Assembly (NCBI GenBank): GCA_002772645.1
Contig: PFDK01000003.1
Coordinates: forward strand, 1 to 40,492
Reading direction: 5' to 3'
From: Candidatus Pacebacteria bacterium CG10_big_fil_rev_8_21_14_0_10_56_10
GTDB lineage: Bacteria > Patescibacteriota > Microgenomatia > UBA1400 > PJMF01
DNA: 40,492 nucleotides
Shown here: positions 11,476 through 14,354 of the stretch, piece by piece
How positions within the stretch are numbered: the stretch's first letter is position 1
Layout of the letters: the number at the start of each line of letters is the position of its first letter
Notes under the pieces: model-generated
Database searches by the model: none
The model's input: the letters and a program-made list of their open reading frames with translations, nothing else
Told to the model about the DNA's origin: nothing
Program-made: the position numbers and the translations under genes

Positions 11476-11919
11476 CTACCCCTCAATGATGAGCTTACCT
11501 TCCATCCCCAGATGCCGATGGTTGCCGACGCTGCAGTAGAAAAAGACCTCGTCCTGCTCGAAGTCCTCCGGAATGGTGAAGGTGACAGAGTCTGTCTGGC
11601 CGGCAAAGATCCGCTCACTGCGCACGTCCAGCTCATCGATCACAAAATCGTGGACATTTTGAGTACTGTCCACTTTGACAGTCACGGCCTGGCCGCGTTT
11701 GACTCGGATCTCCGGCTGGGAAAACTCGAAGTTGCTCAGTTCCAGCACCACGACGGCTTGTTCGTCAGAAACTTCAGCTTGCTGAGAGGTAACGTCTGGG
11801 TTGTTCGGGACGCTGGGACGTTGGGCTTGAGTGCAGGCGGCCAAGATGAGCGAAGTAGAGACCAGCGCGGCCCCGGTGATGGCCAGACGGCCGGCAGGCA
11901 GTGGTGGCAGAAGTATCAT
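11476..11919 (-). CDS. Cupredoxin-domain lipoprotein
   Basis: Lipobox-like ILAAC; type-1 copper ligand pattern NVHDF...FYCSVGNHRHLGMEGKLIIE. Confidence 0.8.
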   Translation of the reverse strand: MILLPPLPAGRLAITGAALVSTSLILAACTQAQRPSVPNNPDVTSQQAEVSDEQAVVVLELSNFEFSQPEIRVKRGQAVTVKVDSTQNVHDFVIDELDVRSERIFAGQTDSVTFTIPEDFEQDEVFFYCSVGNHRHLGMEGKLIIEG

Positions 11920-12051
11920 CGCAAAAACTCCAGTCGCGCTTTAAGTGTAGCTATCATAATCAAGGAGGCGGTCGTCGGCAAGAGTCAGGTTACAGGTCAG
12001 GTTGCTACCAGCGACACTGCCGGCTGAGGCCAGTTAATGAGCTGGTGCGTG

Positions 12052-12088
12052 TTGCGCCACCGCCCGATTATGACTACACTACGTAGTA
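12052..12088 (+). promoter_or_regulatory. Promoter with embedded BlaI-type operator upstream of blaI
   Basis: -35 TTGCGC (12052-12057), 17 bp, -10 TACACT (12075-12080); operator GACTACA-CTA-CGTAGTA (12072-12088) reaching the ATG at 12088. Confidence 0.7.
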
Positions 12089-12510
12089 TGAAGGCAACGG
12101 CGGCCACCGGACCAGGATCTCTGGAGCAACTAGTGCTCAATACTTTATGGGAAGGACGCCGATTAAGCTGTGGCCAAGTGCGCCAGTCACTGGGCCGCCG
12201 GCACCGAAAACGACTGGCCTACACTACCGTGCTGACGGTCCTTGACCGGCTGTACAAAAAAGGAGCGGTGGACCGGCACAAAGAAGGCAGGAAGTTTGTG
12301 TATCGGCCAGCGGCCAGCAGGCGCTCGTACGTCAAGTCTTTGATCCAGGGTACCGTCCGCGGCTTAGTCCATCGATATGGCCAGGAAGCGGTGGTGGCTT
12401 TTATTGAAGAGGCTGATGAACTGACAGAGCCCCCGGCTAGTGATGGGAAAGGTGATGGGGGTGGCGGTGAAAGTGCTGGGAAGGGTGACGGGAAGGGCGA
12501 CGGGCGATGA
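12088..12510 (+). CDS. blaI: BlaI/MecI/CopY family transcriptional repressor
   Basis: SLEQLVLNTLWEGRRLSCGQVRQSLGRRHRKRLAYTTVLTVLDRLYKKGAVDRHKEGRKFVYRP; Gly/Lys/Asp repeat tail. Confidence 0.85.
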   Translation: MKATAATGPGSLEQLVLNTLWEGRRLSCGQVRQSLGRRHRKRLAYTTVLTVLDRLYKKGAVDRHKEGRKFVYRPAASRRSYVKSLIQGTVRGLVHRYGQEAVVAFIEEADELTEPPASDGKGDGGGGESAGKGDGKGDGR

Positions 12511-13436
12511 TCATCACCCGGACGCTGGAAGCCTGTTCACTGGCGGTCAAACTGTTGTCTTCGTACTTGATAGCGCCACGGCAGCTGCTGTGGGTAGCAG
12601 TGGTGTGGTTGGGAGTGTGGGTAGGACTGTCCGTGGCTAAAACGCTCGAGGTCAGGCGCGGCCGAGCTCGGTTGGTGGTCAGGTCCGGCAAACTGCACTG
12701 CTACTTGCTATCGGTCTGTATTCGCTTGGGCCTGCCGGCCCACCAGGTTCAGCTGTTTAGCTCTCGCCGACCGGTGGCGGTAGTGTCGGGGTTACTGTCC
12801 CCCAAGATCACTGTCAGTACCGGGCTAGTGAGCAGTTTGGAGAGGTCTGAACTAGAGGCGGTGTTACTGCATGAGCGCTACCACCTTGAGCACGGCCACG
12901 TGTTGCTGAGGTGGGTACTCGGCGTAGCGGCTCGGACAGTAGTGTTTTTGCCAAGTTTGGGCGATGTGGTCCGGTACTGTCGAGACTGGTGTGAGTTCAG
13001 GGCGGACAGGTACGCTTCCCGAGCACAAGGAACCGACCGGTTTTTGCGCCAGGCCCTGGCCAAGTCCGCCGCTGTCCAAGGCGGTGGGCAAAGTTTCTCG
13101 CTAAGGCAGATTGGCCTGAGCGAACCGGCCTTCGCGGCCGCCAACATCACCGAGCGCGTTGGCTGGCTAAGCGGGGTGGGTGGACCGCGGCTGCGGCTGT
13201 CACTGCGAAAGTTAACGGTATCTGGACTGATAGTCTTGGCTATGTTTGCGTACGGTTGGTTGTATGGCCGTGTTGAGGCGCTCGGGCACGACCCGACGGC
13301 TGTCAGGCTGTGCGCGCAGGCCGGTGAAGCACCGGCGGCCAGCCGCCAATCAGTCCCGGCTTCTTCCAGTCCGGTCCCTGCCAGTTCGTCGTCAACAGAC
13401 CAGTCGTTGTTGTTAATGTCTAGCTTTCAGCCATAA
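12507..13436 (+). CDS. M56 (BlaR1/MecR1-like) membrane metallopeptidase without a penicillin-sensor domain
   Basis: LEAVLLHERYHLEHGHVLLRWVLG (HExxH), CEFRADRYA; ATGA overlap with blaI; ends soon after the last TM. Confidence 0.82.
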   Translation: MIITRTLEACSLAVKLLSSYLIAPRQLLWVAVVWLGVWVGLSVAKTLEVRRGRARLVVRSGKLHCYLLSVCIRLGLPAHQVQLFSSRRPVAVVSGLLSPKITVSTGLVSSLERSELEAVLLHERYHLEHGHVLLRWVLGVAARTVVFLPSLGDVVRYCRDWCEFRADRYASRAQGTDRFLRQALAKSAAVQGGGQSFSLRQIGLSEPAFAAANITERVGWLSGVGGPRLRLSLRKLTVSGLIVLAMFAYGWLYGRVEALGHDPTAVRLCAQAGEAPAASRQSVPASSSPVPASSSSTDQSLLLMSSFQP

Positions 13437-13500
13437 TGGCAATGGCCTGAGGCGCGGCAAGCGAAGTATCAAGGCGGACCATCGAAAGCGAACCATCAGC

Positions 13501-13537
13501 TTGACGATGCCGAGGATAAATACTACACTTTGTAGTA
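13501..13537 (+). promoter_or_regulatory. Promoter with perfect BlaI-type operator upstream of the DsbA-like gene
   Basis: -35 TTGACG (13501-13506), 17 bp, -10 TACACT (13524-13529); operator TACTACA-CTT-TGTAGTA (13521-13537). Confidence 0.78.
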
Positions 13538-13574: not shown

Positions 13575-14354
13575 ATGCCAAACAATCAAGCCTACTCTTT
13601 CCGATCAAGTATGTCGTTCCTCAACCGCCACTTTGCCCTACTGGTGATCGGGGCGCTGCTGTTCGCGGGCGGTTTCCTGGTAGGGTCGCTGAGGACCGAG
13701 AACCAGCTGTTAAGTCAAGGCGGCGAACCGTCCAGGTCAGCTGGCACGACCGCGGCGGCCGGCACTGCACCAGCCCAGCCACCGGCGCCAGCCCCGGCCA
13801 ACGTGAGCGGCATGCCGGAGCTGGCCGACCAAGACCACGTCCGTGGGGCAGACAACCCGTTAGTGACGCTAGTAGAGTACTCCGATTTTGAATGCCCGTT
13901 CTGCCAGCGCTTCCACCCGACTATGAACCGGGTGCTGGCAGAGTACGGTGACCAAGTGGCCTGGGTATATCGACACTTCCCTCTGAGTATCCACGCCAAT
14001 GCCCAGAAAGCTGCCGAAGCGTCTGAGTGCGTGGCCAAGCTAGGCGGTGAAGAAGCATTCTGGAACTTTAGCGACTTGTACTTCGAGCGGACCACCTCGA
14101 ACGGCACCGGCTTTCCGTTGGATGGACTGGCCGATCTGGCGGCAGAAGTGGGTGTTGACGCCGCGGCTGTTCAGACATGCCTGGATAACGACGAAATGGC
14201 CGACCGCGTTCAAGAAGACGTTGACGGTGGGGCGCGAGGCGGGGTGACCGGCACTCCGGGCACGATCGTGGTGACCGATGGCGGTCCTCAGGAGCTCATC
14301 CCCGGTGCTTTGCCCTATGAGCAGGTGAGCCAGGTAATAGACCGCTACTTGTAG
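13575..14354 (+). CDS. DsbA-like thiol oxidoreductase, membrane anchored
   Basis: N-terminal TM, VEYSDFECPFCQRFHPTMNRVL (CPFC), GVTGTPGTIV cis-Pro loop. Confidence 0.88.
   Translation: MPNNQAYSFRSSMSFLNRHFALLVIGALLFAGGFLVGSLRTENQLLSQGGEPSRSAGTTAAAGTAPAQPPAPAPANVSGMPELADQDHVRGADNPLVTLVEYSDFECPFCQRFHPTMNRVLAEYGDQVAWVYRHFPLSIHANAQKAAEASECVAKLGGEEAFWNFSDLYFERTTSNGTGFPLDGLADLAAEVGVDAAAVQTCLDNDEMADRVQEDVDGGARGGVTGTPGTIVVTDGGPQELIPGALPYEQVSQVIDRYL

Follow-up and report, generated by a model that had tools for sequence, protein, structure and literature searches.

A putative BlaI regulon with a BlaR1-type membrane protease and a DsbA-like target in Candidatus Pacebacteria and other Microgenomates

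The stretch of Candidatus Pacebacteria DNA that was analysed (40,492 nucleotides, hereafter the window) carries a blaI gene, a gene for an M56-type membrane protease and a dsbA-like gene, which likely form a two-promoter BlaI regulon under a BlaR1-type anti-repressor, retargeted to thiol-redox homeostasis here and to copper in a sister module. The predicted membership of blaI-M56 and dsbA in this regulon was well supported by sequence comparison, and BlaI very probably represses both promoters. A preliminary description of the window had proposed BlaI control of its own operon and of the thiol oxidoreductase gene, which class-wide operator conservation and co-occurrence with BlaI support. The features concerned are as follows.

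11476..11919, minus strand: cupredoxin gene, divergent neighbour of blaI, context only (PF00127, E=5.7e-07)
12052..12057, plus strand: -35 element TTGCGC of the blaI-M56 promoter, with the -10 following after 17 bp
12072..12088, plus strand: operator O1, GACTACACTACGTAGTA (GACTACA-CTA-CGTAGTA, two mismatches), including the -10 TACACT at 12075-12080; its final base doubles as the A of the blaI ATG
12088..12510, plus strand: blaI, encoding a 140-aa Penicillinase_R repressor, predicted leaderless (PF03965, E=1.3e-22); start by alignment with relatives
12507..13436, plus strand: gene of an M56/BlaR1-type membrane zinc metalloprotease, 309 aa (PF01435/PF05569), overlapping the blaI stop (ATGA)
13501..13506, plus strand: -35 element TTGACG of the dsbA promoter, with the -10 following after 17 bp
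13521..13537, plus strand: operator O2, perfect palindrome TACTACACTTTGTAGTA (TACTACA-CTT-TGTAGTA), including the -10 TACACT at 13524-13529
13575..14354, plus strand: dsbA-like gene of a membrane-anchored thioredoxin-fold oxidoreductase, 259 aa (PF13462, E=1.5e-19; PF01323, E=1.8e-18)

Both palindromes were found exactly where the preliminary description had placed them, and the promoter geometry that it had described as shared was identical at blaI and dsbA: TACACT begins at operator position 4 in O1 and O2 alike, and the -35 to -10 gap is exactly 17 bp at each. The window was scanned with up to 3 mismatches to the palindrome, which gave 3 matches against 0.53 expected, a count that by itself is weak evidence against chance. 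The genome (949,651 bp in 29 contigs, 93.8% complete) was scanned with TACTACA-N3-TGTAGTA, as the same description had suggested, and exactly two sites within 2 mismatches were obtained, O1 and O2. The pattern ACTACANNNTGTAGT with 1 mismatch was too loose for genome-wide use, controls being as frequent as matches, and a promoter-anchored pattern was therefore used; exact TTG-N19-CTACAMTNNGTAG occurred exactly twice in the genome, at the blaI and dsbA promoters. A terminator was sought between M56 and dsbA and none was found, so dsbA may also receive readthrough transcription.

The winged-helix domain of Penicillinase_R was present in BlaI with a PF03965 score of 80.8 bits (cut-off 22.6), and blaI was the single gene of this family in the genome of the window. 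The BlaI profile matched the structures 2g9w, 1okr and 1sd4; among solved structures, the one closest to the family profile was 2g9w, M. tuberculosis BlaI (Rv1846c), a repressor whose targets differ from those of the window. The long blaI reading frame opens at 12037, and the Pfam match and the alignment of relatives fit the ATG at 12088-12090, so the start is most likely 12088, with O1 overlapping the start codon. From the position of the -10, transcription of blaI would start on the AUG or directly beside it, and the mRNA would be leaderless. The likeness to BlaI, MecI and CopY operators with TACA...TGTA cores, noted in the preliminary description, was borne out by O2 (TACA-N3-TGTA) and by the dyad of BlaI's own promoter, O1 (TACA-N3-CGTA), with a spacing of N3 as compared with N2 in CopY. 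The C-terminus of BlaI, GDGGGGESAGKGDGKGDGR, is cysteine-free and so has no CxC metal motifs of the CopY type.

Conservation was examined in 374 genomes, an evenly drawn sample of the class (Microgenomates/OP11), of which 71 encode BlaI by profile. The region from -45 to +6 of 82 blaI genes was surveyed, and the operator CTAC-N4/5-GTAG was found at the start codon of 67, being perfect in 54 and having one mismatch in 13 more (shuffled stretches, 0.13% and 2.7%, respectively). Among these 67 operator-bearing genes, 61 have the -10 hexamer TACA(A/C)T at an identical place in the operator, 43 have TTG 17 bp upstream of the -10, and in nearly all the ATG follows GTAG by 1-9 nt. The dominant spacing was TACA-N3-TGTA (54/67), with the classical spacing in 12/67. 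At the blaI sites of spacing 5 the central base on the coding strand was T in 46 of 46, which points to a -10 element, because the -10 demands this T and the dyad does not.

With target types assigned by sequence motifs and Pfam checks made on representatives, a second operator was found before the adjacent DsbA-like gene (membrane-anchored Trx/DsbA) at 34 of 36 loci and before the adjacent HMA-type gene (heavy-metal/DsbD/cupredoxin) at 13 of 16. Within the 60 nt upstream of genes the operator density was 2.2 per kb, a figure that applies to loci chosen for BlaI and is no genome-wide density, against 0.036 per kb within genes. The combined promoter-operator pattern was present in 37 of the 71 BlaI genomes and in 4 of the 303 in which BlaI was not detected, 2 of these 4 sites preceding genes that resemble BlaI-linked targets; this class-wide comparison makes a chance origin of the operators untenable. 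An accidental palindrome was ruled out by the shuffles and by the positional distribution of the sites.

The preliminary description had stated that its proposal would be refuted by an operator not conserved before blaI and dsbA in relatives; the operator proved to be conserved. Besides the class-wide counts, two family relatives, G006 and G028, have it at both genes (in G006, GACTACAATCTGTAGTATG and CACTACACTTCGTAGTA), and three others (G038, G039 and G010) have it at blaI. No other genome of the genus of the window was found in the family search. The search of named genomes gave no relatives of the M56 protein, and a search with a closer BlaI alignment gave matches in named Microgenomates. 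The start-fused operator was rejected as a general trait of BlaI: blaI genes of Poribacteria, Planctomycetes and Bacteroidaceae have mostly purine-rich leaders without it, and those found outside Patescibacteria have mostly ordinary leaders.

The M56 protein of the window scored 28.3 bits against PF05569, borderline and just under the cut-off of 31. Its structure was predicted with a mean pLDDT of 82, and in Foldseek the best solved match was S. aureus BlaR1 (8exp, E=1.5e-4), as it was again for an M56 homologue of the class (8exq, E=4.6e-6). The catalytic residues (HExxH, E163 and D167) were invariant across 56 homologues. The protein is a short form with about 60 residues beyond its final predicted transmembrane helix, a low-confidence tail where no Pfam match to a penicillin-binding sensor domain was found. 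With topology and sidedness inferred from hydrophobicity and from BlaR1, its outside cysteines are predicted to be C10 and C269; the column of C269 is Cys in at least 90% of the 56 homologues, and the tail has one cysteine as against the usual three. Each of the 34 DsbA-linked M56 proteins combines one or more tail Cys, mostly arranged as C-x3-8-C-x2-4-C, with a Cys in the TM1-TM2 loop, predicted to lie outside, or, in short forms that lack TM1, in the N-terminus. In the copper type, on the other hand, the tail motif is CxHLxxC in 11 of 11, the loop Cys is absent in 9 of 11, and the other 2 have one that is differently placed. On the BlaI tree this split in cysteines arose once, the HMA type being one clade with a single change, and for that reason the association of sensor tail with target (Fisher test, p=1e-10) was not taken as independent evidence.

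The DsbA-like protein, whose gene has a leader of about 38 nt, has an ECPFC active site and a hydrophobic N-terminus (anchor), and appears by family, CxxC and anchor to be a thioredoxin-fold thiol oxidoreductase, predicted to form disulfides. The genome of the window has four DsbA-like genes, and the operator precedes the one beside blaI only; the three paralogues (G000:C2:776-1552, C11:16082-16618 and C1:20907-21410) are 40-59% identical to that of the window and none has an operator before it.

The usual order in the class is a leaderless blaI, M56 (often overlapping), the operator and the target. For the HMA type, the representative target is an HMA-DsbD_2-cupredoxin protein by Pfam, and in G059, G062 and G063 (loci L093, L094 and L095) two paralogous BlaI-M56 modules, one DsbA-linked and one HMA-linked, lie within about 8 kb. 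The divergent cupredoxin of the window had been taken as a hint of a copper/redox signal: the copper/redox part was strengthened by this sister module, and inclusion of the cupredoxin gene itself in the regulon was not supported, as no operator was found at it in the scans of window and genome. Further operator-bearing genes encode heavy-metal-domain, Met-rich and DUF3105 proteins and an ArsR-like regulator (Met-rich and ArsR-like labelled by eye). Three operator-preceded genes, L104 5919-6998, L126 2947-4434 and L113 6355-7572, had a weak Pfam match or none, and the products of L104 and L126 have a common CCxNSxxFxDCNHG motif and a C-terminal GGGC. In G039 (L008/L015), blaI has a multicopper-oxidase-like gene as its divergent neighbour, and M56 is followed by a response-regulator-like gene (labels by eye).

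The module is not complete everywhere. In G006 and G028, blaI and dsbA are present and an adjacent M56 is absent, the sensor there being either dispensable or located elsewhere. In G008 (99% complete) the dsbA operator is kept (L151 4417-4429) and BlaI was not detected, so this may be an orphan operator, a recent loss or an assembly gap. Some other BlaI of the class have no M56 neighbour, and an N-terminal cysteine cluster (e.g. MSCNCHCNSKCG; MSCNCHCNxKCG type) was found in 10 BlaI without adjacent M56 (nine by script, and L148 by eye from upstream DNA, its start codon having been set too late by the script) as compared with 0 of 64 M56-paired BlaI. These loci (L161, L162, L163, L165, L167, L130, L134, L138, L148 and L166) are near heavy-metal-domain genes. 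The cysteine-cluster proteins are possibly direct metal-sensing repressors that replace the protease, and the pairing of cluster with M56 absence may be one evolutionary event.

The S. aureus systems BlaR1-BlaI and MecR1-MecI (PMC9834060; 8exp, 1okr) have in common with the window the repressor family, a co-encoded M56 zinc protease with the BlaR1 fold and an operator of the TACA/TGTA type; BlaI of S. aureus is reported to be cleaved between Asn101 and Phe102 (PMC9834060). In contrast, the M56 protein of the window has no penicillin sensor and its tail is short and cysteine-bearing, the targets here are DsbA or copper-handling genes, and the dominant operator spacing is one base longer, with the operator fused to the -10 and to the start codon. 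CopY/CopR of Gram-positive bacteria belong to the same repressor superfamily and have copper-related targets, as the sister module has; BlaI and MecI have been reported on TACA/TGTA operators, and the CopY consensus was given as TACANNTGTA and later as RNYKACANNYGTMRNY (PMC7253601). Unlike CopY/CopR, BlaI of the window lacks the C-terminal CxC and has an M56 partner, and its spacing is N3, not N2. According to work cited in PMC7924339, the BlaI regulon of M. tuberculosis extends beyond beta-lactam genes, for example to ATP synthase genes. No description of a system like that of the window was found in the literature searched, subscription journals being mostly outside its scope.

A BlaI dimer would bind O1 and O2, covering the -10 and the start site, and would block RNA polymerase at dsbA and at blaI-M56, the autoregulation of which would make the response self-limiting. 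M56, with its active site predicted to be cytoplasmic, would respond to an envelope signal and, once activated, would cleave or otherwise inactivate BlaI, by which both promoters would be released; relief of repression through proteolysis by M56 is quite probable. The chances are about even that the inducing signal is thiol redox and/or copper. It would be the balance of thiols and disulfides in the envelope, which copper may disturb, with the DsbA output closing the loop; such a signal is most likely because the penicillin-binding domain is absent and C10 and C269 are predicted to lie outside. It is tentatively proposed that M56 is a transmembrane disulfide sensor whose outside cysteines are DsbA substrates, so that low disulfide capacity would leave these cysteines reduced and the protease active, BlaI would be removed and DsbA raised (a proteolytic homeostat), and that the copper-sensing sister arose by joint change of cysteine set and target gene.

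Copper might instead be the direct signal in the window, with M56 sensing Cu(I) via its outside cysteines and DsbA induced for the repair of copper-oxidised thiols. This is possible though doubtful: it is favoured by the target and CxHLxxC tail of the sister module, by the operators at Met-rich and heavy-metal-domain genes in relatives and by the cupredoxin and multicopper oxidase genes adjoining blaI in the window and in G039, respectively, whereas the cysteine sets of DsbA-linked and copper-linked M56 differ, the two modules stay separate where a genome has both, which suggests two signals, and the cupredoxin gene of the window has no operator. It is most improbable that the system is a classical response of the beta-lactam or cell-wall kind, with a thiol oxidoreductase as a mere addition. 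The repressor and the protease do belong to the families of the bla/mec systems, and regulons of BlaI that include wall genes have been reported (PMC8457756), but the M56 protein has a short C-terminal tail in place of the penicillin sensor, no beta-lactamase or penicillin-binding genes were seen beside the operators and no link to beta-lactams was found. Redox or copper is likelier than antibiotics as the signal, because M56 lacks that sensor and some copies in the class control copper-handling genes.

It is also improbable that BlaI controls blaI-M56 alone and that the dsbA palindrome is a relic or the site of another regulator. The dsbA site kept in G008 and the four pattern-bearing genomes without detected BlaI would fit such an explanation; against it, O2 is the better site of the two, nearly every adjacent Trx/DsbA gene has a site before it, and the combined pattern goes with the presence of BlaI. 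Counted against the two-promoter regulon were the two mismatches of O1, G008, the missing M56 in G006 and G028, the one-cysteine tail and the lack of a terminator.

Members of the candidate phyla radiation are mostly uncultured and little is known of their gene regulation; here an operator, a promoter, a repressor, a protease and a target are defined that recur class-wide. The findings suggest that the protease-repressor mechanism of BlaR1/BlaI, known from antibiotic resistance, serves to control envelope redox and copper as well, and that the sensor part of such a system can be a short cysteine tail.
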